Shown: piece after piece, positions 13,423-49,930 of the stretch
How the letters are laid out: every line of letters begins with the position of its first letter
How positions within the stretch are numbered: the first letter of the stretch is position 1
DNA from: Salinimonas profundi
GTDB taxonomy: Bacteria; Pseudomonadota; Gammaproteobacteria; Enterobacterales; Alteromonadaceae
Direction: 5' to 3'
DNA: 64,000 bases
NCBI RefSeq assembly: GCF_014750655.1
Contig: NZ_JABBXD010000002.1
Location: 1-64,000, forward strand
Translations under genes and position numbers: made by a program
Notes under the pieces: model-generated
Told to the model about the DNA's origin: nothing
Database searches by the model: none
Seen by the model: only the letters and a program-made list of their open reading frames with translations

Positions 13423-16083
13423 TTACTTGAGAACTGAGCGAATTGTGTCGGTGGATAACGGTTTCACAAAATGCTGCTCAAACCCGGCTTCCTTCGACTC
13501 CTCGATATATTTTTCTGTGCCCCACCCGCTTTGCGAGAAGAACCTGACATTCTGTGCCTCGGGTAGTTTTTTAAGGATTCGGCATAACTCATAGCCATCG
13601 ATGTCAGGCATGCCAATATCAAGAAAAACAAAGTCAGGTTTAAAGCGCTTAAACGCTTCTTCGGCCTCTTTGGGCGAGGTGATACCTGACGCTTCAAGCC
13701 CCATTGCCTCAGACAGTAAGCAGTATGTATCGACAAGATCGGCATTATCATCGACAAACATTATCTTTTGTTGGCGAGTGGATGACACTGGCGTAGATTC
13801 TGTATCCGACTCTTCAAAGGCCTGTTTTGAAATCGGTAAACGCACCTCGAAAGTGCTGCCTTTGCCCTGCCCTTCACTGAATACTGAAATATCGCCGTGA
13901 TGTAATGTTACCAGCTTATGCACTAGCGTAAGGCCGATACCCAGTCCACCTTTGGTGTGGGTAGAATGCGCATCAATTTGCGTGAACATGTTAAAGACAT
14001 CTTTGAGCCGGTCTTCGGGAATGCCCATACCGTTATCTTCAACAGCCACCACGACCATTGGACCTTCTTCGCGAACGTTTATAGAAATTTCGCCTTTGTC
14101 TTCAGTATACTTGGCCGCATTGTGAATGATATTTGAAAAAATCTGACTCAACCGGGCTTTGTCACCAAATACAGTGACGCCATCCTGAAGATAGTGAAGA
14201 TCCAGTTCATGATTTTTGGCCTTGATGTGCTGGTCAACAATTTCCAGTGAATCGGAAATAACGTCCTGAATGTTGACCTTCTCAAACTCCAGTTTCACTT
14301 TGCCTCGTGTGATCCGCGACACATCCATTAAGTCGTTAATCAACTTAGACATATACTCAGCCTGACGATTGATGATAGAAGTCACTCGCGCCCGGGTAGC
14401 TTCATCTGAGGCCGTCTCTAAAATACTGGCGCCTGACATAATAGGCCCAAGCGGATTGCGAAGCTCATGCGCCAGTGTTGCTAGAAACTCATTGCGATAC
14501 TGATCCTGCTTTTCCAGCTCTTCAATACTGATATGCATGCGCTCCTGCACCTCCAGTGCGTAAACCAGAAACATGCGGTTCAGGCGATTTGCAGTATCAA
14601 TATCTGCCTTATCAAATTCAGTTGAGCGCCCCGTGATCGTTCTCTCATTAACCTGAAAAGTGGTGCGTGGCTTTAACCGCTCTTCTTTTGATGCAGCCTC
14701 GGATTTTTCACCTTCAGAGCCTATCCATTTTTGTACACGATGTTCCTCTTTTCTGAACCAGGCCGTGAAATACTGCTTTTTTTCAAATAATGGAATAATC
14801 AGAATGCCGGCAATATTGTAATGCTCAGCTTCTGGCCACTCTTCATACAGCGCGTCATTTTCATAAGGAAATCCGGTCGTGTTCCGGGCGCTGCTAAATA
14901 TAGATTTAATTAAATCTACTGGCAGGGTGTCACCTAAAACAATGGTTTCGTATTGTGAGAAGTAAATAAATCCGCAGCTATTCATCGCCTCCAAAAAGGC
15001 TTTCTCGCCGCTTTTCACAACCCGGCCGATGGGATTAGAGGGGCCGATTTTATCCAGCATGCCATCGACAGCTTTATCGATTTGCTGTTTTTTCTTACGC
15101 GCAATTTCTTCCTCTTTGGCCCGTAAGTGCCAGCTGAATAACTGACTTAAGTTTTCACACTGAAGCCGAACATCCTGAGGGATATATTTTGCGTCGCGAT
15201 GATGACAGGAAATCAATCCATAAAGCTCGCCCTCAGTGACCAGTGAGATTGAAAAAGATGCTCTCAACCCCTGATTCCTGATGTACTGCAAGTGAATAGG
15301 GGAAAAACGCCGTAATAGCGAGCGGGTAAGATCAAGGGGTTCGCGATTTGATTGTTCAATGGATGGGATCAGCGCTGCGGCCGGTAATTCTGTATCAGGG
15401 GTCAATCTAACCCAGTTTTGCGTGTACAGCTCGCGCGCCTGACTGGGTATATCGCTGGCAGGAAAATAAAGATTCTTATAAGAATCCATATCGTCTGCCT
15501 TTGCTTCAGCAATCACCTTTCCAGAATAGTCATCATGGAATTTGTATAGAACCACCCTATCCATATTTGTTAAATACCGGATGGTTGACACCATTTCCTG
15601 CGCCATCTCGCTTAACGAATTCATCTCTTTAAAACGTGGTGCCACCGACATGGCATACAGCTTGATAAATTGTTCTGCGCTATAGGCATCTCTGAATTCG
15701 GTCGCCGGCTCTAATTCGACAACGTACTTGCCGTTTGCATTGTAAACCACAGCAAGATAATCGTTATCGGTATCGGGTTGCAGTAATGCTTCATCAAGCT
15801 CAATTTTGATTGGCAGGCGGATTTTATTCGCTGACACCCGTTCGAAAGTATCTTTTAAAAACGCTTTCGTATCGGTTTTGGGACAAAGGATATCGATGAA
15901 GTGTTTGTCCAGAATAGATTCTTTGAAGATTTGCTGTGTATTTTCGCTGACAACACTTATCGTCAGGTCATCATCTTCGAAGGCAATCAAAAAACCATAA
16001 CTTTGAATAGCTTCCGGAATATGAATAGGTTCATCTTCACAATTTTCAAAATTAAACGTTATCTCGCCACTCTTATCAGACAT
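13423..16083 (-). CDS. Bacteriophytochrome hybrid histidine kinase
   Basis: An 886-residue cytoplasmic photoreceptor kinase with domains in the order PAS, GAF, PHY, HisKA, HATPase, receiver. C15 in NCEDEPIHIPEAIQSYG sits at the biliverdin-binding position. The GAF pocket motif PASDIPSQARELY and the SPIHLQYIRNQGLRASFSISL stretch are typical of phytochromes. The phosphoacceptor is H539 in LAHELRNPLG, and the receiver aspartate is D822 in FVFLDIGMPD. It presumably senses red/far-red light through biliverdin, but no heme oxygenase gene lies in this window. The gene is alone in its transcription unit, so its phosphorelay output is unknown. Confidence 0.92.
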   Translation of the reverse strand: MSDKSGEITFNFENCEDEPIHIPEAIQSYGFLIAFEDDDLTISVVSENTQQIFKESILDKHFIDILCPKTDTKAFLKDTFERVSANKIRLPIKIELDEALLQPDTDNDYLAVVYNANGKYVVELEPATEFRDAYSAEQFIKLYAMSVAPRFKEMNSLSEMAQEMVSTIRYLTNMDRVVLYKFHDDYSGKVIAEAKADDMDSYKNLYFPASDIPSQARELYTQNWVRLTPDTELPAAALIPSIEQSNREPLDLTRSLLRRFSPIHLQYIRNQGLRASFSISLVTEGELYGLISCHHRDAKYIPQDVRLQCENLSQLFSWHLRAKEEEIARKKKQQIDKAVDGMLDKIGPSNPIGRVVKSGEKAFLEAMNSCGFIYFSQYETIVLGDTLPVDLIKSIFSSARNTTGFPYENDALYEEWPEAEHYNIAGILIIPLFEKKQYFTAWFRKEEHRVQKWIGSEGEKSEAASKEERLKPRTTFQVNERTITGRSTEFDKADIDTANRLNRMFLVYALEVQERMHISIEELEKQDQYRNEFLATLAHELRNPLGPIMSGASILETASDEATRARVTSIINRQAEYMSKLINDLMDVSRITRGKVKLEFEKVNIQDVISDSLEIVDQHIKAKNHELDLHYLQDGVTVFGDKARLSQIFSNIIHNAAKYTEDKGEISINVREEGPMVVVAVEDNGMGIPEDRLKDVFNMFTQIDAHSTHTKGGLGIGLTLVHKLVTLHHGDISVFSEGQGKGSTFEVRLPISKQAFEESDTESTPVSSTRQQKIMFVDDNADLVDTYCLLSEAMGLEASGITSPKEAEEAFKRFKPDFVFLDIGMPDIDGYELCRILKKLPEAQNVRFFSQSGWGTEKYIEESKEAGFEQHFVKPLSTDTIRSVLK

Positions 16084-35988: not shown

Positions 35989-38900
35989 ATGCTAAGTATC
36001 TGGACTGTCGGCGCCATCGTGGTGGGATATCTGACGTTTTTGTTCATTGTCGCTTTTTTAGGTGACAAGTACCTGAAGGCCAATCAACAGCATCCGATTC
36101 TCTATAGCCTGGGATTAGGCGTTCACTGCACATCATGGGCATTTTTCGGCACCACCACACAAGCTGTACAGTTTGGATGGGCGGTGGTACCCACCTACGC
36201 TGGCATCATACTGGTAATGATGTTTATGTTTCCGGTGTTATTACGCATAAACCGGCTTTGCCAGCAGCACAGCATCAGCTCGCTGGCTGACTTCATCGCG
36301 CTTCGTTACCAGCGTTCACACCTCATTGCCGCTGTTATCACAGCGATATGCTTTATCGGCGTGATCCCCTACATTGCCTTACAGCTGGATGCGATAACCA
36401 AAAGCATTAACTTGCTGGCGCCGAACGCCCGACAGGGTCTTAACACGGTTGGCATCTACGTTGCTGCTTTAATGGCACTGTTCGCCATTTTATTCGGCAC
36501 CCGAAGCCTGAGCCTCAAAGAGAAGCACCCTGGGTTATTACTCACTATCGCCGTTGAGTCTGTGCTCAAGCTGATTGGATTATCTGTCGTCGGCCTGTTT
36601 GCCTGTTATGTCCTGTTCGACGGCCCCCTGGATCTGGTGGCACAGGCTGCGCAGCACCCGGCATCCCGCGACATTCTTTATGCTGACAATGCGCCATGGG
36701 TTTACCTGGGGCATGTGCTGTTAGGCGTGTGTTCCATGTTTGTTCTGCCCCGACAATTTCATATGAATTTTGTCGAAAGTAACGGTGATGGCGAGCTTCG
36801 CACGGCTCGCTGGCTGTTTCCGTTATACCTGTTGAGTATGACTGTATTTATTTTGCCGCTGGCGCTGGCCGGGCAGATGCTGCTGGACACCGCAGTCATT
36901 AGCTCAGACGAATTTGTACTGGCATTACCGTTATCCCAGTCAAACCTGCCGGTTTCAATGGCGGCCTTTATTGGCGGGCTCTCTGCCACCACCAGTATGA
37001 TTATCGTGGCGACACTGGCGCTAGGCATCATGATTGCCAACAATCTGATTACACCACTCTGGTTGACTATACGTCTGAAAAAACGCTCAGTAAGTACGAT
37101 GAAAGCCAGCGGCATTCTTACTATCCGGCGCATTACCGTACTAGTGGTACTATCGGTGGCTTACTGGTATCACCTGAATGTCAGTCAGTCAGCGCCACTG
37201 GTCAAAAGCGGCATTATTGCTATTGCCCTGCTGGGTCAGATGCTGCCGGCAATGTTATTAGGCATGTACTGGCAGCGCAGTACTGTTACCGGCGCCTATA
37301 TGGCCATACTGACCGGTTTCGCCGGCTGGCTGGCCTGGGTGCTTTACCCCAGCCTGCTATCGAGTTATTACTTTGAGCCCGCGCCCAGTGATAGCCAGTT
37401 AGCCGGAGGCTTCGTGCTTAGTTTGCTGGTAAACGTAGTGACATTGGTACTTATCAGCATCATGACGTCATCACGCCACACCGTTCATGATGAAGAGCCG
37501 CTCAAAACACCGGCGTTGATGATTCGGGTGGCCAACCTGATGCAATTAACACAGCGGGTGTTAGAGCCACAAGAACAACAGCAGCTCAGCGAGCAGCTTG
37601 CGGGCAACAGCGCGGCGGGCACGGGCTATGCCAGTGCCGGGTTACTGCAGAAGGTCGAGCGGCTGCTGGCAAATCAGGTAGGAACACCGGGTGCCCGCGT
37701 CCTGTTAAGTGCACTGGCAGAAACCAGACACCATGAACTCCCCGATCTTGTAGACTGGGTCGAAGAAGCTTCAATGTCATTTCAGTTTAATCACGAAGTG
37801 CTACAGTCGTCAGTACAACATATTCATCAAGGCATCAGTGTTCTGGATCAGCAATTATGTCTGCTGGCATGGAACAAACGCTACGAAGCGTTATTTGATT
37901 ACCCCGCAGACGTGCTTGAAACCGGCATGCACATTGAACAATTGCTGCAATACAACGCTAAACGCGGGCTGTTGGGAGACAGTGATAACGTCGACAATGA
38001 GATCGCCAAGCGCATTGCCTTTATGCAAGAAGGAACCCGCTATAAATATATTCGCCGCCAGCCAGATGGAAAAGTCATCGAGCTTAATGGCAGTCCCTTA
38101 CCCGGCGGTGGCTATGTTACCACCTACAGTGACATTACCGAGTACATCCAGATTCAGGAAGCCCTTGAAAATTCAAAGCTGGCACTGGAAGACAGAGTCA
38201 GGCAACGCACCGAAGAATTGCAACAGGCGCGAAATGATGCTGAACGCGCCAATGAAAGTAAAACGCGGTTTCTCGCTGCTGCAGGGCATGATCTGATGCA
38301 GCCCTTTAATGCTGCCACCTTATTTGCTTCTCTACTGACTCAACGTACAACCGGCACGGCGCTGGAAGAATTAAGCCAGGGTGTCGTTTCATCATTAAAC
38401 AGTGCCGAAACGCTCCTTTCTATGCTACTGGATATGACAAAGCTGGAATCCGGGGTGATGATACCGGAAGTATCCTGCTTTGCGCTTAACGATGTGCTGA
38501 CCCCACTGGTACAGGAATTTTCTGTCATTGCCCGTCAAAAAGGACTGACGCTTAATTATCCGCAGACATCAGTGTACGTTCATTCTGATAAGCGCTTGCT
38601 GCGGCGTATTGTGCAGAATCTGGTCTCCAACGCAATTCGTTATACAGACTCAGGAACCGTGCTGGTTGGCGTCAGAAGATGTGCGGATAATACTGTTTCC
38701 ATCTGGGTATGTGATACCGGTACCGGTATCGCGCCGGAAAAACAACAGGAAGTATTTACTGAGTTTCATCAGCTGGACGCCAATGAAAACAATCCCGGGC
38801 TGGGATTGGGCCTGACTATCGTTGACCGCATAAGCCAGCTACTCGCCCACCCTATCCGACTGGATTCAATGCCGGGAAAAGGCACGCGATTTACCGTGAC

Positions 38901-39345
38901 ATTACCACGAGTAGCCCGCCCGGTGAATCTACCTTCACCGCCAGTCAGTGTTGAACAGTCAAATTCATGTACGGAACAATTTCTGGTAGACAAATCGGTG
39001 CTGATTGTTGAAAACGATCCTGACGTGGCCAAAGCCATGAAGCTGACGCTGGAACAATGGGGCGCTACGACACTGCTGGCAGATAATCTGGAGTCTGCGC
39101 TGGCAGCATGCTCTGCGCCCCCGTCTTTGATGGTGGTGGATTATCATCTGAGTAACCAGCAGACAGGGACATCCGTTGCCCTGCATTTACGTGAGCGATG
39201 GCAGCATGCTGTACCCGGTATATTAAATACGGCTAAACGAGACGAAAATATCAAGGAGATTGCAGCCACCGCACAGCTTTACTATTTACCTAAACCCGTC
39301 AAGTCGCTGGCCTTGAAGCGCGCGATTAAGCGATTACTCAATTAG
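35989..39345 (+). CDS. crbS: CrbS-like sodium:solute-symporter sensor hybrid histidine kinase
   Basis: A protein of about 1118 residues. The N-terminal half (about 1-480) is a sodium:solute symporter-like membrane domain with some 12-13 segments. A PAS domain (about 600-715), a coiled coil, HisKA (H767 in AAGHDLMQPF), HATPase (GLGLGLTIVDR) and a C-terminal receiver (aspartate in LMVVDYHLS) follow. This architecture matches CrbS/MxtR-type kinases, which with CrbR control acetyl-CoA synthetase and acetate use in Vibrio and Pseudomonas. ATG 35989 is the best start; a TTG upstream at 35878 lacks support. Its 3' end overlaps the convergent response-regulator gene by 4 bases. Confidence 0.85.
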   Translation: MLSIWTVGAIVVGYLTFLFIVAFLGDKYLKANQQHPILYSLGLGVHCTSWAFFGTTTQAVQFGWAVVPTYAGIILVMMFMFPVLLRINRLCQQHSISSLADFIALRYQRSHLIAAVITAICFIGVIPYIALQLDAITKSINLLAPNARQGLNTVGIYVAALMALFAILFGTRSLSLKEKHPGLLLTIAVESVLKLIGLSVVGLFACYVLFDGPLDLVAQAAQHPASRDILYADNAPWVYLGHVLLGVCSMFVLPRQFHMNFVESNGDGELRTARWLFPLYLLSMTVFILPLALAGQMLLDTAVISSDEFVLALPLSQSNLPVSMAAFIGGLSATTSMIIVATLALGIMIANNLITPLWLTIRLKKRSVSTMKASGILTIRRITVLVVLSVAYWYHLNVSQSAPLVKSGIIAIALLGQMLPAMLLGMYWQRSTVTGAYMAILTGFAGWLAWVLYPSLLSSYYFEPAPSDSQLAGGFVLSLLVNVVTLVLISIMTSSRHTVHDEEPLKTPALMIRVANLMQLTQRVLEPQEQQQLSEQLAGNSAAGTGYASAGLLQKVERLLANQVGTPGARVLLSALAETRHHELPDLVDWVEEASMSFQFNHEVLQSSVQHIHQGISVLDQQLCLLAWNKRYEALFDYPADVLETGMHIEQLLQYNAKRGLLGDSDNVDNEIAKRIAFMQEGTRYKYIRRQPDGKVIELNGSPLPGGGYVTTYSDITEYIQIQEALENSKLALEDRVRQRTEELQQARNDAERANESKTRFLAAAGHDLMQPFNAATLFASLLTQRTTGTALEELSQGVVSSLNSAETLLSMLLDMTKLESGVMIPEVSCFALNDVLTPLVQEFSVIARQKGLTLNYPQTSVYVHSDKRLLRRIVQNLVSNAIRYTDSGTVLVGVRRCADNTVSIWVCDTGTGIAPEKQQEVFTEFHQLDANENNPGLGLGLTIVDRISQLLAHPIRLDSMPGKGTRFTVTLPRVARPVNLPSPPVSVEQSNSCTEQFLVDKSVLIVENDPDVAKAMKLTLEQWGATTLLADNLESALAACSAPPSLMVVDYHLSNQQTGTSVALHLRERWQHAVPGILNTAKRDENIKEIAATAQLYYLPKPVKSLALKRAIKRLLN

Positions 39346-39983
39346 TGTTCAGCTACCAGTTGATTAAACAGGACACCCGCCTGGGTACGGTTTACTACCT
39401 GTAACTTGCGTAAAACAGCGGAAACGTGCTGCTTAACCGTAGATTCAGAAATAGAAAGCTCAAATGCAATTTGCTTATTGAGCAGCCCGGCTGCCAGCAT
39501 TTTTAACACGGTGTACTGATGTGGCGTAAGCTGGGCGAGGTTGTGCGCAAAACGGGTTTGCTCAACAGCTTCAGGCTGGAGAGTGTCGTTTTGCACATGC
39601 TCGGGCAACCAGTTTTCGCCCTGCATGATTTTTTCAACAGCAGAGGTTATTTCATCCAGCGGGGTGGACTTTGGGATAAAACCGCAGGCGCCGATATCCA
39701 TAACCCGCCGGATAAGCGCCGGCTCATCCTGCGCAGATACCACAACGGTGAGTATATCCGGATAACGATTCAGTAGCTCTCCCAACCCGTTGAGGCCCGT
39801 GGTACCCGGCATGTTGAGATCTAAAAAGAGAAGCTCAACCTCGGGGTTTGCCGCCAGGGTATCCAGGGTTTCCGCCAATGTGGAGGATTCCAGAATAGCT
39901 TCACCGACAACGCCGCAAACTGCCTGTTTCATTGCAGCACGAAATAACGGATGATCATCAGCGATAAGAACAGGCGTGGACAT
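39342..39983 (-). CDS. crbR: CrbR-like LuxR-family response regulator
   Basis: A 213-residue response regulator with an N-terminal receiver (DDHPLFRAAM, phospho-aspartate in LLFLDLNMPG, lysine in IPKSTP) and a C-terminal LuxR-type helix-turn-helix (NKQIAFELSISESTVKQHVS). It is convergent with, and overlaps, the SSS-sensor kinase gene, which supports pairing. CrbR homologues activate acs in other gammaproteobacteria. The ATG at 39983 gives MSTPVLIADDHP, and an in-frame TTG lies two codons upstream. Target promoters here are unknown; the TAGTAC cluster at 42516-42554 is one candidate to test. Confidence 0.82.
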   Translation of the reverse strand: MSTPVLIADDHPLFRAAMKQAVCGVVGEAILESSTLAETLDTLAANPEVELLFLDLNMPGTTGLNGLGELLNRYPDILTVVVSAQDEPALIRRVMDIGACGFIPKSTPLDEITSAVEKIMQGENWLPEHVQNDTLQPEAVEQTRFAHNLAQLTPHQYTVLKMLAAGLLNKQIAFELSISESTVKQHVSAVLRKLQVVNRTQAGVLFNQLVAEH

Positions 39984-40052
39984 AAGCAAAGAACAACAGG
40001 TTGCAAAGTTGTTACTACTATATCAACGAAATGAAAACCCGCAAGAGAAAAC

Positions 40053-40105: not shown

Positions 40106-42430
40106 TTAGAAACGGTAGCCCACAGTTAAATGAACGGTACGGGGATCGCCGTAATAACTGATTAGCGTGGTGTCGTTACCCAAGCCCGGGCCGAAGCTGC
40201 CATCTTCATTCTGGGTCACAAAGTCATACCCTCCCACGATATATTCTTCATCGGTCAGGTTTTTCAGATGCAGGCCTCCGTACCAGTTACCTTCCACACT
40301 CTCCCAGTTCATACTCAGGTTGACCATGCCATAGGCATCCTGCTGAATAAGGTCACTGGTTTCGAAAATCAGATATTCATCCCGGTAATAATAGTTCGCA
40401 TTGAATGTAAAGAAGCCATATTGGGTATCCATGGCATAGTTGGCGGCCACATTCAGCGTATTTTCCGGTGTGCTGGCAAGCCCGATGAGCGGTGGCACAG
40501 CATTATTCTCTTCAATTTCAAAGTCGATGAAACCGTAAGCAACGTCAAAGGACAGGTTGTCAGTGGCCACAAAGGTAGCCTCGATCTCTATCCCTTTCGC
40601 TGACGTTTCAGCCGCATTGCGCAGACGCTGTTGCAGCGCCGTCGGGTCGTTCGAATTGCCTTCTATGCCAATATACTGCCGATCCTGATGGTCGTAGCTG
40701 AACAGCGTGGTATTCAGTCTGAATCGGTCGGTTAAGTCGCTTTTCATACCAATTTCAAAAGAATCAACAATTTCAGGATCAACACCCGGCTCATTGGTCG
40801 TGGCTCGCGGGTTGAATGTGCCTGATTTGAAGCCCTGTGCGTAACTGGCGAAGAACATCATGTCTCTGGAATACTGATATTCAATGCCTACCCGAGGTGT
40901 AAAGCGTGACCAGCTTTCGGTCGCTGGTGCATCAAGTACGCCGTCGCCGTCGGTGTCTGTGCCCAGCACCTGTGGAATGGGTACCATGTCGGGTCTGACA
41001 AACCCGTCAACCCAGCCGCTCTCAGGATACAGGTTGTACAGAACAGTACCATTATTGACCGTTGCCTGTTTTTCTTCATCGGTGTAGCGTGCACCTAATG
41101 ACAACGATAACTTATCGGTTACATCATAATTGACCTGCGCATACCCGGCCCAGCTTTCACTGTTGTTACAGCCTGACACTTCACGGGTAAAGCCAGTGGT
41201 GCCTTCCGGGAAAACGCCTGCTGCGGCAAAGTCTCTGCCCAACACACCCAGCACCGCATCAAAGACACCACAGGACTCACCATCGTAATAGTACAGACCG
41301 CTGACCAGCGTCATGCTGTCGCCGGTATAATTAAACTGAAATTCGTGGGTGTCATTCTCATCTTCATAGATGGCCGGTACATCAAAGATATCCAGCTGGG
41401 TATTATCAAAGTCGATATTAGTGGGTGAGTAACTTTCCCGATGCGAACCGATATACTTGACCTGCATGGCGTCGTTAATATCGTAGCGCGCCATCCAGCT
41501 ATATCCGTCTAACTCAACCTTGTTAGTGGTAGGAAGGCTGGAATAAGAATCAAACACCGAGTCGGGTTGAGGCGCGTCAGTCCGCAGGCTGGGAAGTAGG
41601 CGATATCCGCCTTTTGCATTTGAGTCGTCTTCTGTTTTATCCCAGCCCAGGCGGAAAAATAAGTCATCACTGGCATGAATTTCCAGAGAAAGACGTGCCG
41701 CCCATAAATCTTTATTGTAGTTTTCATTATCCTGACCAGGTTGCGATAAAATCAGGTATTCACCAAAACCGTCACGATTCAGATTGGCATAACCAAAGCC
41801 CAGATAGACCGTATCATCAATGAGCGGATACTGACCGGTGACCTTAATGTCGCGCTGGCTATAACTGCCCACAGTGCCCTGAACATTCAACTGCGGCTCG
41901 CCCGTCATTTCGCGGGTCACATATTTTACTGCGCCACCGATGGTGTTTTTCCCATACAGGGTTCCCTGCGGTCCGCGCAGCACTTCAATGCGCTGTACAT
42001 CCAGTAAATCCAGAACCGCGCCCTGAGGACGAGCAACATAGACATCATCAATATAGATACCGACGCCCGGCTCATACCCCCACAATGGGTCTTGCTGACC
42101 GAGACCGCGGATGAAAGCGGTCAGTGTCGAGTTTGTCCCACGGCTGGTTTGCAATGTGGTGTTGGGCGAAAACTGTTGTACTTCGGTCAGTACGCTGATG
42201 CCTTTTTCCGTCAGCTCAGCCGCGCCGATGGAGGTTATCGCTACCGGCACTTCCTGTAAGGTTTCCACCGTTTTACGTGCAGTGACTTCAATTCTTTCTA
42301 ACTTGCCCTTCTCTTCATCGGCGTTGTCTTCCTGTGCCAGTGTGACCGGCGTATAGGCAAAGGCAGTTGCTACAGCAGCCGCGCAGAGTGTACGACTAAA
42401 ACCAAGCGATTTTATCTGGGTGTGTTTCAT
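40106..42430 (-). CDS. TonB-dependent outer-membrane receptor (candidate 3-hydroxybutyrate-oligomer receptor)
   Basis: A 774-residue outer-membrane receptor. A signal peptide ends near TPVTLAQ. A TonB-box-like LERIEVTA precedes the plug domain (LQEVPVAITSIG, RIEVLRGPQGTLYGKNTIGG), and a 22-strand barrel ends in the aromatic VGYRF. Receptors of this type take up diverse organic ligands. The divergent neighbours, across a shared promoter, are a permease, two secreted hydrolases and 3-hydroxybutyrate dehydrogenase, so I infer a ligand related to PHB oligomers. A strong terminator follows. No FecR/sigma factor partner is present. Confidence 0.88.
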   Translation of the reverse strand: MKHTQIKSLGFSRTLCAAAVATAFAYTPVTLAQEDNADEEKGKLERIEVTARKTVETLQEVPVAITSIGAAELTEKGISVLTEVQQFSPNTTLQTSRGTNSTLTAFIRGLGQQDPLWGYEPGVGIYIDDVYVARPQGAVLDLLDVQRIEVLRGPQGTLYGKNTIGGAVKYVTREMTGEPQLNVQGTVGSYSQRDIKVTGQYPLIDDTVYLGFGYANLNRDGFGEYLILSQPGQDNENYNKDLWAARLSLEIHASDDLFFRLGWDKTEDDSNAKGGYRLLPSLRTDAPQPDSVFDSYSSLPTTNKVELDGYSWMARYDINDAMQVKYIGSHRESYSPTNIDFDNTQLDIFDVPAIYEDENDTHEFQFNYTGDSMTLVSGLYYYDGESCGVFDAVLGVLGRDFAAAGVFPEGTTGFTREVSGCNNSESWAGYAQVNYDVTDKLSLSLGARYTDEEKQATVNNGTVLYNLYPESGWVDGFVRPDMVPIPQVLGTDTDGDGVLDAPATESWSRFTPRVGIEYQYSRDMMFFASYAQGFKSGTFNPRATTNEPGVDPEIVDSFEIGMKSDLTDRFRLNTTLFSYDHQDRQYIGIEGNSNDPTALQQRLRNAAETSAKGIEIEATFVATDNLSFDVAYGFIDFEIEENNAVPPLIGLASTPENTLNVAANYAMDTQYGFFTFNANYYYRDEYLIFETSDLIQQDAYGMVNLSMNWESVEGNWYGGLHLKNLTDEEYIVGGYDFVTQNEDGSFGPGLGNDTTLISYYGDPRTVHLTVGYRF

Positions 42431-42515
42431 AACAGGTCCCTATTATTGTCTCTATCTTTAGAATTCGCTTTCTTAAAGGATGCGGTCAAAATCTAATCTA
42501 AAGCCTTTTTTCCTT

Positions 42516-42554
42516 AAGGTATCTAGTACCTTAGTACGTAGTACCATCGTACTA
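42516..42554. promoter_or_regulatory. Cluster of TAGTAC motifs in the divergent promoter
   Basis: TAGTAC occurs three times in direct orientation at 42524-42529, 42532-42537 and 42539-42544, and once inverted as GTACTA at 42549-42554. An AAGGTA/TACCTT inverted repeat (42516-42521 and 42527-42532) overlaps the first copies. The cluster lies between the receptor and permease starts and is a probable operator; its regulator is unknown. Confidence 0.6.
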
Positions 42555-42637
42555 TGTCAAACCCAGCCCTCTGTCGGCAGAATAATCACGTTCCTTTGAG
42601 GCTCTGCGGTCACAGAACAAATAAAAGGAAACGCATT

Positions 42638-43933
42638 ATGTTGAGTATGACTGGCCTGCTGCTGGGCCTGGTATTGCTGATTATTCTGACTATCCGGGGC
42701 ATGAATTTATTTATAGCCGCCCCGTTATGTGCATTAATTGTGGCAGTTACCAATCACATCCCCCTGTTTAGCGGCGACAGTAATTTTGTCACGCTTTACA
42801 TGAGTGGCTTCTCAGGCTTCATTGCCGCCTGGTTTTTTATGTTTTTGCTGGGAGCCATTTTTGGCAAATTCATGGAAGACACCGGCGCTGCGGACTCTCT
42901 GGCACGCTGGATTGTCGATAAGCTGGGCTTTAAGCATGCTGTGTTGGCGGTCGTGCTGGCCTGCGCGATTCTAACCTATGGTGGAGTGAGTCTGTTTGTC
43001 GTTGCGTTTTCTGTTTACCCTATGGCGTTGAGTTTGTTTAAAGACGCGAACTTACCGCGCCGCTTTATCCCAGCGACCCTGGCGTTTGGTTCAGTCACCT
43101 TTACGATGACCTCTGCCGGTTCCCCGGAGATTCAAAACTGGATCCCCATCAAATATCTGGGCACCTCACCCTTTGCAGCCTGGGAAGTCAGTCTGGTGGT
43201 AGCAATCTTTATGGCATGCTTTGGTTACTGGTGGCTCAAACGTATGATTGGCAAGGCTGTCGCCAATGGAGAGCATTTTGAAGCACGCGATCATGACCCG
43301 GATATTCCTGAGCGCGATTATCCTAATCCGGCAACCGGCCTCATCCCCCTTGTTGTAGTATTACTGCTCTCGTTTTTTCTACACGATACTATCGCGCAAT
43401 ATGCGTTGATTGTAGCCCTCGGCGGCGGTGTGCTGACGCTGATGCTGGTCAACTATAAGCATTTTCAGAATTTACCTGGCGCCATCAATCTGGGCACCAC
43501 AGGTGCGTTGGTAGCAATTGGCAATACCGCAGCGGTAGTGGGTTTCGGCAGTATCGCTAAAAATACGGATGCGTTTATGAGCACCGTCGACCTGATGACC
43601 CAAATTCCGGGAAATGAACTCATCGGCGCGGCCATTGCAGTAAGTGTGATTGCCGGACTGACCGGCTCTGCGTCCGGCGGACAAGCCATCGTACTGCCTC
43701 TGGTGGCACCGCATTATCTGGATCAGGGCGTAGAGCCGGAGGAGTTGCACCGGATTGTTTCCATCTCATCAGGCGCACTCGACTCATTACCCCATAACGG
43801 CTATGTTGTTACCACTATCCGGGCTATCTGTCACGAGACACATCAGGCTGCATATGGACCCGTCGCTGCGTTGACTGTCATTACGCCGCTCATCGGTCTG
43901 GCGATGGCCATTACGATGTTTACGCTTTCTTAA
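42638..43933 (+). CDS. GntP-family permease (probable 3-hydroxybutyrate importer)
   Basis: A 431-residue inner-membrane protein of about 12-14 hydrophobic segments, related to the gluconate:H+ symporter (GntP) family. Recognisable parts are AAPLCALIVAVTNHIPL near the start, GAIFGKFMEDTGAADSLA, and SASGGQAIVLPLVAPHYLDQG near the end. ATG 42638 has AAGGAAA well placed upstream; an in-frame ATG at 42554 lies in the operator cluster. GntP relatives near bdhA genes are thought to import 3-hydroxybutyrate, and here the gene opens a four-gene run ending in that dehydrogenase. Confidence 0.85.
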   Translation: MLSMTGLLLGLVLLIILTIRGMNLFIAAPLCALIVAVTNHIPLFSGDSNFVTLYMSGFSGFIAAWFFMFLLGAIFGKFMEDTGAADSLARWIVDKLGFKHAVLAVVLACAILTYGGVSLFVVAFSVYPMALSLFKDANLPRRFIPATLAFGSVTFTMTSAGSPEIQNWIPIKYLGTSPFAAWEVSLVVAIFMACFGYWWLKRMIGKAVANGEHFEARDHDPDIPERDYPNPATGLIPLVVVLLLSFFLHDTIAQYALIVALGGGVLTLMLVNYKHFQNLPGAINLGTTGALVAIGNTAAVVGFGSIAKNTDAFMSTVDLMTQIPGNELIGAAIAVSVIAGLTGSASGGQAIVLPLVAPHYLDQGVEPEELHRIVSISSGALDSLPHNGYVVTTIRAICHETHQAAYGPVAALTVITPLIGLAMAITMFTLS

Positions 43934-43947
43934 AACAGGAATTTTTC

Positions 43948-45141
43948 ATGATCGCAAAAACACATTTCGCTGCCCGTATAATGCTCATCGCGTTGTTTTG
44001 CTGTAATACGGCGCTCGCCCTGCCCCTGGTCGAAAAGCAAACATTTACAACCAAACAGTTTGCCCTGTTCTCGGGTAAAGTACTGCCTGAGGTAACCGTG
44101 GGTTGGGAAAGTTATGGCGAACTGAATGAAGCAAAAGATAATGTTATTTTAATTACGCATTATTTTTCCGGCTCTTCCCACGCTGCCGGTAAATATCATG
44201 AGGATGATGCCCAGCCCGGGTACTGGGATGCCATCATCGGCCCGGGTAAGCCCATTGATACATCAAAGTATTTTGTCATTAGTGTGGATTCACTGGCTAA
44301 CCTTTCTGCGTACGATGACAACGTCATCACAACCGGACCGGCATCTGTGAATCCTGAGACCAATAAACCGTATGGGCTCGATTTTCCTGTTGTCACTATC
44401 CGTGACTTTGTGAACGTACAAAAAGCGGTACTGGAAAGTCTGGGTATCCGCAAATTACATGCTGTCATTGGTCCGTCGATGGGGTCGATGCAAGCTATCG
44501 ACTGGGCAAGTGCTTATCCGCAGTGGGTACCCAGAATGGTATCGGTTATCGGCAGCGGCCAAAGCGATGCCTGGACAACCGCTGCATTGGAGCACTGGGC
44601 GCGTCCTATTCGGTTGGATAAAAACTGGAACGATGGCGATTACACCCGTCAAGAGCCGCCTACAGAAGGGCTGGTATCCGCACTGATGCTGATTACCCAG
44701 CAGGCGTTACATCCGGCATTTTTTAATCAACAGGGCAACTCGATCGATTATCAGCCGGTAGAACCGGCCCCGCTGGAAGATATTCGTCAAAGCCATTCCA
44801 TCGTTAACTGGCTTGAGCAGCGCGCCCGAAGCCGTGCTGATAAAATGGATGCCAATCACTTGCTTTATCTGGTCAGAGCCTGCCAGCTATTCGTGGCAGG
44901 ACACAAAGACAGCCTGCAGCAAGGCCTGTCAACAATCAAGGCCAAAACCCTGTTTATGCCTGCCGCCAACGACTTGCTGCTTATGCCGTACCTCTCTACC
45001 CGTACTTATGAACAGTTACGCAAAGCAGGAAAAAACAGTCACTATGCAGAATTACAAGGCAACCTGGGTCACCTTGAGGGTGTGCTTGATATCCAGGAGC
45101 AAGGCGAGAAACTCAAATCCTTTTTAAATGATGATAAGTGA
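43948..45141 (+). CDS. Secreted MetX-fold alpha/beta hydrolase
   Basis: A 397-residue protein with a signal peptide (cleavage near NTALALP) and a homoserine-acetyltransferase-like alpha/beta hydrolase domain. The nucleophile is S177 in IGPSMGSMQ, THYFSGSSHAAG lines the oxyanion side, and the likely catalytic histidine is in NLGHLEG near the C-terminus, with an aspartate in AANDLLLMP. True MetX is cytoplasmic; export and context argue for a hydrolase, perhaps acting on hydroxyalkanoate oligomers. It follows the permease by 14 bases with AGGA upstream, clearly in the same operon. Confidence 0.8.
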   Translation: MIAKTHFAARIMLIALFCCNTALALPLVEKQTFTTKQFALFSGKVLPEVTVGWESYGELNEAKDNVILITHYFSGSSHAAGKYHEDDAQPGYWDAIIGPGKPIDTSKYFVISVDSLANLSAYDDNVITTGPASVNPETNKPYGLDFPVVTIRDFVNVQKAVLESLGIRKLHAVIGPSMGSMQAIDWASAYPQWVPRMVSVIGSGQSDAWTTAALEHWARPIRLDKNWNDGDYTRQEPPTEGLVSALMLITQQALHPAFFNQQGNSIDYQPVEPAPLEDIRQSHSIVNWLEQRARSRADKMDANHLLYLVRACQLFVAGHKDSLQQGLSTIKAKTLFMPAANDLLLMPYLSTRTYEQLRKAGKNSHYAELQGNLGHLEGVLDIQEQGEKLKSFLNDDK

Positions 45142-45148
45142 GGAAACC

Positions 45149-46144
45149 ATGAAGGGATACGTGATTACACTGGGACTGGCGTTGTACAGCGCTTCAGCCC
45201 TGTGTCAGCAAATGAACATTGATACTGACAATATCACCGTTTCCGGGTTGTCCTCCGGCGGATACATGGCGAATCAGTTTCATATTGCCCACAGTGATAA
45301 GGTCAGCGGCGCAGCGATCGTTAGTGCAGGCCCCTACTATTGTGCGCGAAACGATATCACTATCGCGCTGGGTGCCTGCGTGGATAAATCAGAGCCGATT
45401 CCGCTACAGACCTTTTCTAAACGCGCTGAGGAATGGGCCGCGCAGGGAAAAATAGCACCATTATCTAATCTGAGTGAGGATCGCGTCTGGTTATTTCATG
45501 GCACCCGCGATAAGCGGGTGGCACAGACTGTCACCGCATCACTGTATGAACAATATCAGGGCTGGCTGACCAGTGGCGATATCCAGTATGTAAAAGACAA
45601 GCCGTTCGGTCATCTGTTACCCACCGTAAACAGTGGTGTATCCTGTGACAGTTCTGCCGCGCCCTATATCGGAGATTGTGATTATGATGCAGCTGGCAAG
45701 GCACTTTCTTTTTTACTCGGTGCGCTAAAGCCGCCCGCAAAAACCTTATCGGGTGAGGTGGTTTCGTTCAATCAAAAAGAGATTGGCGGGTCCAATGCAG
45801 ACACGCTGGCCGAAACAGGTTTTGCCTACGTGCCTGAAAGCTGTAAAACAGGCGAGGCTTGTCAGGTGCATGTGAGCTTTCACGGCTGTAACCAGTATGC
45901 TGATGAAGTGGGTAAAGCGTATGTAGATAATGCTGGCTTTAACCGTTGGGCTGACAGTAATAACCTTGTGGTTATTTATCCGCAAACGAAAAAGTCGCTC
46001 TTTATGCCCTTAAACCCCCAGGGATGCTGGGACTGGTGGGGCTATACCGGTGCAGATTATGCCACCAGAGAGGGTGCTCAGATTCAGGCTGTAGACGCCT
46101 TTATAGCGTCATTTGCAAAAACCGATAAACAGGATAAGTCATAA
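45149..46144 (+). CDS. Secreted polyhydroxybutyrate depolymerase-like esterase
   Basis: A 331-residue exported protein with signal peptide MKGYVITLGLALYSASALC. The lipase box is GLSSG with S35 as probable nucleophile, close to the mature N-terminus. A later HVSFHGCNQYADEVG stretch is typical of the depolymerase family, and GCWDWWGY follows near the C-terminus. There is no substrate-binding or linker domain, so it may prefer soluble oligomers or amorphous polymer. I chose ATG 45149, with GAGGA upstream, over 45128. Its stop overlaps the bdhA start (TAATG). Confidence 0.82.
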   Translation: MKGYVITLGLALYSASALCQQMNIDTDNITVSGLSSGGYMANQFHIAHSDKVSGAAIVSAGPYYCARNDITIALGACVDKSEPIPLQTFSKRAEEWAAQGKIAPLSNLSEDRVWLFHGTRDKRVAQTVTASLYEQYQGWLTSGDIQYVKDKPFGHLLPTVNSGVSCDSSAAPYIGDCDYDAAGKALSFLLGALKPPAKTLSGEVVSFNQKEIGGSNADTLAETGFAYVPESCKTGEACQVHVSFHGCNQYADEVGKAYVDNAGFNRWADSNNLVVIYPQTKKSLFMPLNPQGCWDWWGYTGADYATREGAQIQAVDAFIASFAKTDKQDKS

Positions 46145-46908
46145 TGTCACATACAATTTTTATAACCGGTGGAGCCAGTGGCATTGGTTTCGGTCTTGCA
46201 GAAAACCTGGCAAAAGATGGCCATCATGTGGTCCTTGCGGATATCAATGAACAGGCTGTTAACGAGGCCGCACAGCGCCTCATTGATCAGCAATTAAACG
46301 CCAGCGCGGTTGCTGTAGATGTCACTGATGCAGACGCCGTAGCGGCGCTGCCAAAGCGTTTGGATACCCTGAAAATTGATATTCTTATCAATAATGCAGG
46401 CATACAACATGTGTCGCGGCTAGAAGATTTTCCCGCCAAAAAATGGCAGCAGCTTATTGATATTATGCTGGTCGCCCCCGCCCTACTCAGTCAGGCATTC
46501 TTACCGGGTATGCGGGAACGAAATTTTGGCCGGATCATCAATGTAGGCTCTATACATTCTCTGGTTGCCTCGCCCTATAAGTCGGCCTATGTGTCTGCCA
46601 AACATGGCTTACTAGGCTTTGCCAAAACACTGGCGCTGGAAGTCGCTGATGCAGATATCACCATTAATACGCTCTGCCCGGCCTATGTTAAAACACCTTT
46701 AGTTGAGAAGCAGATCGCTGATCAGGCAAAGGAAAATGGTATCAGTGAAGATGAAGTCATCAACGAAATCATGTTAAAGCCGATGCCGAAAAAAGCCTTT
46801 ATCAGTATTGAGGAACTGGCCGGTACAGCGCGCTTTCTCATAAGTGATGTGGCCCGCAATATTACCGCCCAGACAATGGTACTGGATGGCGGCTGGACCG
46901 CCCGCTAA
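46144..46908 (+). CDS. bdhA: 3-hydroxybutyrate dehydrogenase
   Basis: A 254-residue short-chain dehydrogenase oxidising 3-hydroxybutyrate to acetoacetate with NAD+. It shows the nucleotide fold TGGASGIGFGLA, the family-specific NAGIQHVSRLEDFPAKKW, the catalytic Y and K in YVSAKHG, and the C-terminal ITAQTMVLDGGWTAR. It overlaps the depolymerase stop by one base, so the two are coupled. It completes the predicted chain from polymer to acetoacetate. No CoA-transferase or thiolase lies in this window. Confidence 0.92.
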   Translation: MSHTIFITGGASGIGFGLAENLAKDGHHVVLADINEQAVNEAAQRLIDQQLNASAVAVDVTDADAVAALPKRLDTLKIDILINNAGIQHVSRLEDFPAKKWQQLIDIMLVAPALLSQAFLPGMRERNFGRIINVGSIHSLVASPYKSAYVSAKHGLLGFAKTLALEVADADITINTLCPAYVKTPLVEKQIADQAKENGISEDEVINEIMLKPMPKKAFISIEELAGTARFLISDVARNITAQTMVLDGGWTAR

Positions 46909-47995: not shown

Positions 47996-49138
47996 TTGAC
48001 AGTTAATACCACGGAATGCGGTTTATATCTGGAAGCGCAAAAAGAGCAGATTTTTGCTCAGTGGGAAGAACTTGCCAATGAAAAGTTGAAAGCAGCTTCT
48101 AACGCGCCGGATTTAATTGTCAGAAATTATCTTCCCTATTTTCTGGCAAACCTGGTGTCCGAGCTGAAAGCATTTGAATTGGAATCTGGCAGCGACATCG
48201 AAAAAATCAATAACATTGATTTTGACGCGAAATACAGTGATGAACACGGCCGCTCCAGAGCGTCGGTAGCACGTTATACGGTCGCACAGGTTATCCAGGA
48301 ATACTCACTGCTCCGTCAGGTTTTGCGAAGTCGCCTTTATGATAACAACATCCTTTGCCTCACCACCGCTGAGATAATTGACAGATTCATCGAAACCAGC
48401 TGCGCGCAGGCGGCACAACAATTTGCTAACTCACTGGACGAAGTTCAGGAAAAACTTATCAGTGTTATCGCTCACGATTTAAGAAACCCTATTTCAGTCG
48501 CCAGAAGTTATGTGGAAATCGGTGAACTTGGACTCTCAACCTCTGATAAAGTGTTTGGTTCACTTAAGCGCAGTCTTGAAAGGGCGCTGAAACTTATTAG
48601 TGAATTACTGGATACCACACAACTTGAAGCTGGCCGTGGCATGACATTTCGCTTCGAACAGAAAGACATGGTTAAAGAATTAGGCGTTGCCACGAATGAA
48701 GCGCAGGAAGTCTATGATAATCCTATCCGCTTTGCCACTGAGCTGGAAACCGCTCATGTCGTGTGTGATCACATGTCTATTTTACGCGTTGTAGAAAACC
48801 TCATTTCTAACGGTATTAAGTACGGTAGTGTAGAAAGCCCGATAACGCTCTCGCTTGAAAAGAACACCGATGAGATTCTTATCAGTGTTCACAACGAAGG
48901 GTCGTATATTGAGCCAGAACAACAGAACTCTATGTTCGAATTTTTATCCCGTCACACCGGCGGCAGAGATCAGAGAAAAGAGGGCTGGGGACTAGGCTTG
49001 TACCTGGTAAGACTTGTCGCGAAAGCACATAAGGGTAAGGCGTGGATTGAAAGCGATCGTGGGACTGGCACTACCTTTTGTATCTCAATAAAAAATGAAG
49101 CCCACCCGCCCGGTTCTGCATTTTCTGAGTATACCTGA
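47996..49138 (+). CDS. Soluble sensor histidine kinase with RsbRD-like N-terminus
   Basis: A 380-residue cytoplasmic kinase. The first 150 residues form a helical region resembling the RsbRD/RsbR N-terminal sensor type. HisKA follows with H in VIAHDLRNPISVARS, and HATPase has the N box (ENLISNGIKYG) and G box (GWGLGLYLVR). It starts at TTG 47996 with AAGGA seven bases upstream. No response regulator is adjacent, so it is an orphan. Signal unknown. Confidence 0.87.
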   Translation: MTVNTTECGLYLEAQKEQIFAQWEELANEKLKAASNAPDLIVRNYLPYFLANLVSELKAFELESGSDIEKINNIDFDAKYSDEHGRSRASVARYTVAQVIQEYSLLRQVLRSRLYDNNILCLTTAEIIDRFIETSCAQAAQQFANSLDEVQEKLISVIAHDLRNPISVARSYVEIGELGLSTSDKVFGSLKRSLERALKLISELLDTTQLEAGRGMTFRFEQKDMVKELGVATNEAQEVYDNPIRFATELETAHVVCDHMSILRVVENLISNGIKYGSVESPITLSLEKNTDEILISVHNEGSYIEPEQQNSMFEFLSRHTGGRDQRKEGWGLGLYLVRLVAKAHKGKAWIESDRGTGTTFCISIKNEAHPPGSAFSEYT

Positions 49139-49321: not shown

Positions 49322-49930
49322 ATGAAGAAGGTGATCGCATCATTTATTGGCGGTATTGCGCTACTAGCAAGCGTAACAGCCAATGCCAGTCTGATTGTAA
49401 ATGGTAGCTTTGAAAACAATACTGTTAACGCCGGTGGCTGGAAATCATTCAACTCTTCACAGGTTGATGGCTGGTCCTCAGAAGCCGGTATTGAAATCTG
49501 GAACAATCTGAACAATTTCGCCGCGTTCGACGGAGCACAATTAGCTGAATTGAATTCAAATGGCTCTGGTTATCAAAGCCTTTACCAGAGCTTTGCATCT
49601 GACGCAGGGCAGGTTTACGCGCTTGATTTTGCCCACACGGCCAGAGACAACCTGAGCGAATCGTTTAAAATTGTGATAAGTGATGCAAATAGCGACACTA
49701 CGCTGTTTTCTGAGGTCATTACGCAAACGACAAGACGTCAATGGAATACGTTTAACACCGTATTTGTAGCCTCATCTGATATGACAACGATTACCTTTAC
49801 CTCATTAAACAGCGGCTCCACTGGCAATCTGCTTGATGCTGTTAGCGTCACAGTACCGGAACCCGGTTCTTTGGGGTTGATGGTACTGGGCTTAATCGCC
49901 CTTGTGTGTGGCCGCGCAAGAAAGGCATAA
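49322..49930 (+). CDS. PEP-CTERM sorting-domain exported protein
   Basis: A 202-residue exported protein with signal peptide MKKVIASFIGGIALLASVTANA and mature start SLIVNGSFENN. A carbohydrate-binding-like beta-sandwich follows, and the tail has the PEP-CTERM layout: VPEPGSLGLMVLGLIALV then RARKA. Such proteins are processed by an exosortase and are linked to exopolysaccharide. No exosortase gene is in the window. The sigma-54-type promoter agrees with known PrsK/PrsR-linked regulation of this class. Confidence 0.92.
   Translation: MKKVIASFIGGIALLASVTANASLIVNGSFENNTVNAGGWKSFNSSQVDGWSSEAGIEIWNNLNNFAAFDGAQLAELNSNGSGYQSLYQSFASDAGQVYALDFAHTARDNLSESFKIVISDANSDTTLFSEVITQTTRRQWNTFNTVFVASSDMTTITFTSLNSGSTGNLLDAVSVTVPEPGSLGLMVLGLIALVCGRARKA

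Follow-up and report, generated by a model that had tools for sequence, protein, structure and literature searches.

We analyzed a stretch of 64,000 nt from Salinimonas profundi contig NZ_JABBXD010000002.1 (the window, on which positions are numbered), in which a gene for a TonB-dependent outer-membrane receptor is divergent from an operon encoding an inner-membrane permease, two exported esterases and the 3-hydroxybutyrate dehydrogenase BdhA (BDH). These genes, together with an adjacent sensor kinase and response regulator, probably form a dedicated regulon for the use of exogenous polyhydroxybutyrate (PHB) or, more likely, of soluble oligomers of 3-hydroxybutyrate (3HB). The main evidence is the conservation of the gene neighbourhood among related genomes, a palindrome conserved upstream of the receptor gene, and the association of the same receptor with two different types of depolymerase.

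Organization and conservation of the locus

The receptor (774 aa) is encoded at 40106..42430 on the minus strand. The operon runs on the plus strand and comprises the permease of the ion-transporter superfamily (CitMHS/GntP; 42638..43933), an exported E22-family MetX-like esterase (43948..45141), an exported type-2 short-chain-length polyhydroxyalkanoate (PHA) depolymerase, PhaZ, which consists of the catalytic domain only (45149..46144), and BdhA (46144..46908). A sequence-only reading of the window had proposed that PHB oligomers are cut outside, captured by the receptor, cut further in the periplasm and imported by the permease; all five open reading frames (ORFs) that it described are present, divergent as stated, and agree with family models. 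Its gaps of 14, 7 and -1 bases within the four-gene run hold, provided that the depolymerase, whose ORF is listed from 45128, starts at 45149 with the signal peptide. The permease ORF spans 42554-43933 (plus strand), and its true start is probably 42638, the same Met as in most orthologues. That reading did not include the operator-like palindromes at 42524-42554, nor the hybrid sensor histidine kinase (35989..39345, plus strand) and the LuxR/NarL-type, ErdR/CrbR-like response regulator (39342..39989, minus strand), a convergent pair beside the receptor; the kinase ORF is listed from 35878, and the start at 35989 is our choice.

Searching genome contigs with the depolymerase sequence gave 305 relatives, from which the best 80 were retained, so that this set is biased to close kin. 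Within 7.5 kb, and over set identity floors, the 80 loci contain the receptor in 69 cases, the permease in 70, the MetX-like esterase in 67, BDH in 66 and the regulator in 66, with all five genes in 62. The receptor gene is divergent in 68 of the 69 loci that have it; in the remaining one, from Alteromonas sediminis (L041), it lies on the permease strand. The kinase was found within the same distance in 28 of the 80 loci, a low count due in part to the loci ending 10 kb from the match. Those without the receptor are one locus cut by the contig (L054) and ten distant loci, some of them near contig ends.

A survey based on an even draw of 147 whole genomes from the family (depolymerase at E<=1e-40; receptor at E<=1e-150, seven candidates scored per genome), revealed the depolymerase in 56 genomes and the receptor in 104, with one receptor match each except in G147. 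The receptor adjoins the depolymerase (<=10 kb) in 45 of the 56. Counted from the receptor, 102 of the 104 genomes have it beside a type-2 operon (45), a short type-1 depolymerase (26) or the permease (31); in G150 it is isolated, and G274 fell outside the neighbourhood check. The receptor is thus co-conserved with the four genes or else accompanies a type-1 enzyme or the permease, which supports the earlier import-and-cut proposal overall, and we regard the gene association as established. Some loci entered the counts twice: L128, L137 and L138 repeat L056, L043 and L041, and L162 repeats L054.

Outside the family, a metagenome-assembled genome of Steroidobacteraceae (L063) carries the kinase, the permease, the receptor (32%), PhaZ and a perfect copy of the operator described below; two more one-mismatch operator-like sites lie in this locus, at 13725 and 14559. 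Two loci from another family of the same order (L122 and L123) have the kinase, permease, receptor and PhaZ, with the operator at two mismatches. L163, also outside the family, contains BDH, regulator, kinase, permease and a 29% receptor, with the bare core GTAC-N4-GTAC and no operator site at <=1 mismatch, and in L164 the permease was accompanied, among the genes sought, by no more than a weak AMP-binding match. A class-wide draw of 369 genomes yielded the permease in 4, including two from outside the order, which indicates that the system is uncommon.

Enzymes, receptor and permease

The depolymerase scores 390.8 bits on the NCBIfam model NF050059 (cut-off 280). The match fills residues 27-327 of 338, which leaves no space for a substrate-binding domain. 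It aligns over its full length with the solved PHB depolymerase 2d80 (1e-54), including the Ser-Asp-His residues and the cysteines, and all 96 aligned members share Ser42 (in the GxSxG motif), Asp128, His162 and eight Cys residues. These features place it in the type-2 short-chain-length PHA depolymerase family, with PHB as the predicted substrate. The structures 2d80/2d81 are those of the PHB depolymerase from Penicillium funiculosum, a fungal extracellular enzyme; they share with PhaZ the single catalytic domain of type 2, the difference being that the fungal enzyme has no transport locus.

The E22-type esterase scores 618.4 bits on NF005262 (cut-off 450) and matches 5jkf/5jkj over the whole mature protein (E-value 9.3e-177). 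Ser177 is present in 88 of 88 aligned sequences, and Asp342 and His375 in 87 of 88; from what is known of the fold we take these residues to be the catalytic triad. A literature search for esterase E22 returned nothing. BdhA scores 343.2 bits on TIGR01963 (cut-off 307.05), and its closest PDB match is 3v2h. A crude hydrophobicity scan detected signal-like N-termini in 86 of 87 E22 esterases, 87 of 95 PhaZ and 18 of 18 type-1 proteins; it also flagged 29 of 92 BDH sequences, a warning on its specificity. Because PhaZ is a single exported catalytic domain with no binding domain, its action on oligomers in the periplasm seems to us as likely as cutting outside the cell. A profile search of the S. 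profundi genome, in which 15 of 24 first-look candidates were scored, found no type-1 PHA depolymerase, which makes the PhaZ of the locus the sole exported PHA depolymerase recognised there.

The receptor passes the Pfam cut-offs for the plug (PF07715, 62.6 bits) and the beta-barrel (PF00593, 125.5 bits). Its structure model was poor (mean pLDDT 64.9) and was left out of the fold search. The earlier description of the permease as GntP-type is loose: in Pfam, GntP scores 28.8 bits (cut-off 22.5) and CitMHS 36 bits (cut-off 31.9), and the NCBIfam gluconate permease model TIGR00791 falls far under its cut-off (36.7 vs 292.75 bits). A PDB sequence search with the permease gave no match. Its structure model (pLDDT 74.7) resembles carriers of the ion-transporter superfamily, namely yeast Pho90, NaS1 and INDY-type proteins (TM-scores 0.4-0.7; the top row of the fold search carries a different title). 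As judged from the model, the fold class is established, and 3HB is the predicted substrate.

Operator and sensor pair

The palindrome TAGTACCATCGTACTA (42539..42554), between the receptor and the permease, is the proposed binding site of the response regulator. Its consensus, TA[CG]TAC-N4-GTA[CG][AT]A, occurs upstream of the receptor with no mismatch in 71 and with one mismatch in 29 of 112 loci, compared with 0.05 and 1.4 loci expected from dinucleotide shuffles (1.45 at <=1 mismatch vs 100 observed). This count covers the last 300 bases before the receptor, includes the window and takes three genomes twice; the loci are related to each other and are therefore not independent events. A wider scan (450 bases in 128 loci, repeats included) found the operator at <=1 mismatch in 117. 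Among 2.65 Mb of sequence from 138 loci there are 75 perfect consensus sites, 73 of them <=600 bp from the receptor start and two within ORFs elsewhere. When the set was reduced to 55 dissimilar sites, the information content was 1.69 bits per column in the arms vs 0.42 in the flanks, and -35 and -10-like columns appear downstream, which would put the operator at about -51 to -36 from the transcription start. Conservation of the operator is established, and its binding by the regulator is what this arrangement suggests. A possible second, imperfect copy with two mismatches (42524..42539) abuts the palindrome, and its spacing would suit the receptor promoter according to our reading by hand; alone it is not significant, as the two window matches at <=2 mismatches were equalled in 24 of 100 shuffles. 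One locus without the receptor (L113) has a one-mismatch operator between permease and regulator; the receptor of that genome stands alone (L112), with the operator only at three mismatches. The idea that loci lacking the regulator also lack the operator was rejected, since Thalassotalea (L056/L128) retains the operator at one mismatch.

The kinase is a CrbS/MxtR-like paralogue with an SLC5-like domain followed by PAS, HisKA, HATPase and REC domains; the last four are over their cut-offs and the SLC5-type SSF domain reaches 22.6 bits (cut-off 22.8). A STAC model did not turn up between the SLC5 and kinase parts in the Pfam scan, no search aimed at STAC having been made. Over its whole length it can be aligned with the kinase linked to acs in the same genome (33% identity over 1155 columns). 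The regulator resembles ErdR/CrbR and is best classed as a paralogue. Its acs-linked paralogue in S. profundi (41% identity) has as neighbours an acs-like gene, a CrbS-like kinase and an actP-like gene. This cluster (L146, G000:C9:147000-162822), with an actP-like symporter, the CrbS-like kinase, the acs-like gene, the ErdR-like regulator and an ACTU-like site, TACGACCATCGTCGCA, between the kinase and the actP-like gene, is probably the ordinary acetate switch of the genome; the gene names come from reading the sequences and, for the kinase, also from alignment. A third ErdR-like regulator (G000:C1:637691-638311; L142, L145), 43% identical to that of the window, has neighbours that look lipB/lipA-like by eye.

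The recognition helix of the regulator varies with the half-site. Among the eight commonest forms listed, TAGTAC goes with VKQH/IKQH (88) or VKNH (6), and VKKH was found in 14 of 14 regulators with TACTAC; the count (128 loci) also takes in short loci of the S. profundi genome. In the acs-linked paralogue the helix reads VKAH.

Exchange of depolymerase modules

Where the type-2 enzyme is absent, the receptor often lies about 0.2 kb from a short exported esterase. Two such esterases were scanned and scored 243 and 261 bits on the type-1 short-chain-length PHA depolymerase model NF050058 (cut-off 150), and the genome search also puts the short esterases over the type-1 cut-off. The receptor is within 10 kb in 26 of the 29 genomes that hold a short type-1 enzyme over the cut-off, and no genome of the 147 was found with type-2 and short type-1 enzymes together at the receptor. 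Of 18 type-1 loci fetched, 13 also contain an MFS transporter and an Abhydrolase_3 esterase, and thus a second kind of module (receptor, type-1 enzyme, regulator, kinase, MFS and Abhydrolase_3; L082, L083, L086, L087, L089, L092-L095, L097 and L102-L104). Twelve of the 56 PhaZ genomes also hold a long type-1 enzyme (open frame >600 aa).

The 31 receptor genomes with the permease adjoining and no depolymerase <=10 kb have MetX in 30 cases, the other being cut by the contig. Seven receptor-permease-MetX loci without PhaZ (L085, L088, L090, L091, L096, L101 and L160) carry BDH followed by ScoA and ScoB, which would convert acetoacetate to acetoacetyl-CoA. In eleven others (L107, L110, L111 and L147-L154) an AMP-binding acyl-CoA synthetase lies between permease and MetX, perhaps as another route to activate the imported acid.

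Phylogenetic analysis rejected a one-clade origin of the receptors from type-1 loci (17 rows vs 28, log-likelihood difference 437, p-AU 2.86e-5), and the receptor trees need 4 to 5 changes for this group. In a 42-row tree, a single branch (support 99) separates the regulators of the same loci from all the others; with all 119 regulator rows included, 2 changes have to be assumed for the type-1 group, which may nevertheless have one origin. The subset trees comprise all 17 type-1 rows, 15 of the 31 permease-MetX rows and 13 or 10 hand-picked rows of 68 type-2 ones, calculated with no mixture model; one receptor tree included the long, partly mis-framed rows L058 and L063, and a later one used aligned segments. 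As the receptors from type-1 loci fail to form one clade while, in the subset tree, the regulators do form one, the receptor, or the module under it, appears to have been exchanged between the two kinds of module. By this sequence evidence the same receptor is a partner of both depolymerase types, and the simplest reading is that the common ligand is 3HB oligomers, which both types release.

Proposed mechanism and alternative explanations

Taking the gene association as the starting point, we infer what the substrate is, where it is cut and which signal is sensed, as follows. The receptor would carry 3HB oligomers across the outer membrane, as its gene partners and the module exchange suggest. 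The exported type-2 PhaZ and the E22 esterase, assigned to their families with confidence, would cut the oligomers to the monomer in the periplasm and perhaps outside. The permease, placed by its fold class, would import 3HB, and BdhA, a clear family member, would oxidise it to acetoacetate. The SLC5-type kinase would respond to a monocarboxylate, with 3HB as the likeliest candidate; the ErdR-like regulator would activate receptor and operon from the conserved palindrome between them. The pair is a paralogue of the CrbS/CrbR acetate switch, which has a separate copy at another place in the genome. On balance we also favour a fuller proposal, i.e. a polyester-oligomer utilisation regulon in which a receptor specific for 3HB oligomers is interchangeable between a type-2 PhaZ/E22/permease module and a type-1 PhaZ/MFS/hydrolase module, and in which an SLC5-type kinase, derived from the acetate switch, has become a sensor of 3HB that acts through a separate operator.

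Several observations weigh against a dedicated PHB or 3HB-oligomer regulon. The evidence from this analysis is entirely computational. Eleven of the 56 PhaZ genomes have no receptor within 10 kb: nine have the depolymerase apart from receptor-permease-MetX, one (G150) has the receptor alone and apart from the operon, and in one (G256) the contig is short. The regulator scores 208.6 bits on the ErdR/CrbR model NF041830, under the cut-off of 390. In the S. profundi genome TAGTAC-N4-GTACTA has one exact occurrence, at the site in the window, and a further one, within an ORF, that differs at a single base; the reversed pattern gives 8 matches per strand at <=1 mismatch vs 2, so that the count in this genome alone proves nothing. 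A single perfect site is near chance in one genome (about 0.24 would be expected for 12 fixed bases in 4.07 Mb). Of nine free-standing PhaZ loci, just one has a perfect operator (in a neighbouring ORF) and one an operator with one mismatch within about 400 bp, a mostly negative outcome. The covariation of helix and operator rests on few independent events, as the K-type regulators group together in the tree. Finally, PMC7190382 reports that carbon limitation did not raise the expression of most genes adjoining carbon-responsive transporters.

The absence of a depolymerase within 10 kb of the receptor in 31 of the 104 receptor genomes means that the ligand could be wider than PHB. Receptor and E22 esterase would then serve short-chain hydroxyacid or acyl esters in general, with PHB oligomers as one ligand of several and PhaZ as an accessory in certain lineages. 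Those genomes keep the receptor and the permease, and in 20 of them neither PhaZ nor a long type-1 enzyme was found anywhere at the thresholds used; the loci with an acyl-CoA synthetase point the same way. In nine of the 31, however, PhaZ lies elsewhere in the genome and in two more there is a long type-1 enzyme, and the variable partners (BDH, ScoAB, type-1 and type-2 PHA depolymerases) all indicate 3HB. We therefore consider the wider ligand range rather improbable, though it is the alternative to which we give most weight. S. profundi itself has the PHB synthase PhaC, which counts against an exogenous source and for a locus that recovers the cell's own PHB or leaked breakdown products; the gene lies in a PHB synthesis cluster (L136, G000:C8:155500-174500) whose other ORFs read by eye like phasins, a PhaR-type regulator and an acetoacetyl-CoA reductase. 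Across the family, however, PhaC (E<=1e-30) was found in 20 of 147 genomes; no more than 13 of the 56 PhaZ genomes are among them, and its absence from the matches in the other 43 favours an exogenous source of PHB or oligomers. Similarly, a report on Thalassotalea describes two PHB depolymerases and no synthesis genes (PMC7564069). Signal-like N-termini are seen in the enzymes, internal granules would make an outer-membrane receptor unnecessary, and we give own-PHB recovery very little credence.

Just as remote, in our opinion, is a siderophore- or vitamin-type receptor that stands beside a PHB operon by chance. A siderophore receptor model (TIGR01783) does give the best NCBIfam score, 160.9 bits, and the PDB sequence search with the receptor found two relatives, a pesticin receptor and a haem receptor. 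That score is under the cut-off of 223.5, and chance placement is hard to reconcile with adjacency in 102 of 104 genomes, with a conserved operator and with exchange between two depolymerase modules. In addition, a probable counterpart in Alteromonas macleodii was up under carbon limitation, according to the accessible part of PMC7190382.

If the proposed regulon is real, marine PHB breakdown has, beyond secreted enzymes, a private receptor-based uptake comparable to that of polysaccharides. The genomes in which receptor and permease were found with no depolymerase would be candidates for scavenging the products of other cells, and the operator would serve as a simple genomic marker of PHB use. 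Through the kinase, the SLC5 sensor family would gain a further small-acid signal, after acetate and pyruvate.

Relation to known systems

Polysaccharide utilisation loci combine a TonB-dependent receptor with degradative enzymes, a permease and their own regulator. The locus described here has the same components, and its receptor is co-conserved with the degradative operon, as expected of a locus of this type; the difference is the predicted substrate, a polyester and not a glycan. It thus belongs to a familiar class, utilisation loci with a TonB receptor, but the polymer that it would serve is unusual. A link between such a receptor and PHB has already been published: Manck et al. (2020, PMC7190382), in the portion available, list MASE_06600 of A. 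macleodii ATCC 27126 as a TonB-dependent transporter with a PHB depolymerase neighbour and polyhydroxybutyrate as predicted substrate, raised by log2 1.59 under carbon limitation. This rise counts in favour of the proposed regulon. The likeness to the S. profundi receptor lies in the TonB transporter beside a PHB depolymerase. MASE_06600 is probably an orthologue, given that Alteromonas species (e.g. L029 and L078) have the locus. That portion of the paper mentions regulators only generally, for most such neighbourhoods, and names no sensor pair, operator or depolymerase exchange. The passages available from a paper on Aliiglaciecola name PhaZ and BDH and do not mention TonB (PMC10821302).

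The sensor pair is most similar in kind to CrbS/CrbR (MxtR/ErdR), which, in the sections of PMC5715377 and PMC8402216 at hand, comprises an SLC5 hybrid kinase and a LuxR-type regulator acting through an imperfect palindrome that directly precedes the promoter. The operator-like TAGTACCATCGTACTA of the window is similar to the published acs site TACTACCATCGTCGAAT, and the ACTU site of acs is placed at -52 to -36 from the transcription start (PMC5715377). The spacing to the -10-like columns is similar, but the half-site differs, and the pair of the window is a separate paralogue beside a receptor and a polyester operon. RpuS/RpuR of Sinorhizobium fredii is likewise an SLC5/STAC kinase and LuxR-type regulator pair, which controls a monocarboxylate permease; it is alphaproteobacterial, responds to pyruvate and, in the part of PMC9100948 available, is described with no mention of an outer-membrane receptor. 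The passages on the SLC5 sensor family in these three papers name no 3HB or PHB system, and the open-access literature searched, in the parts available, yielded no description of a sensor pair and operator for PHB or 3HB uptake.

Other genes of the window

Downstream of BdhA, the window encodes a histidine kinase with an RsbRD N-terminal domain (47996-49138) and a DUF642 protein with a PEP-CTERM sorting motif (49322-49930).

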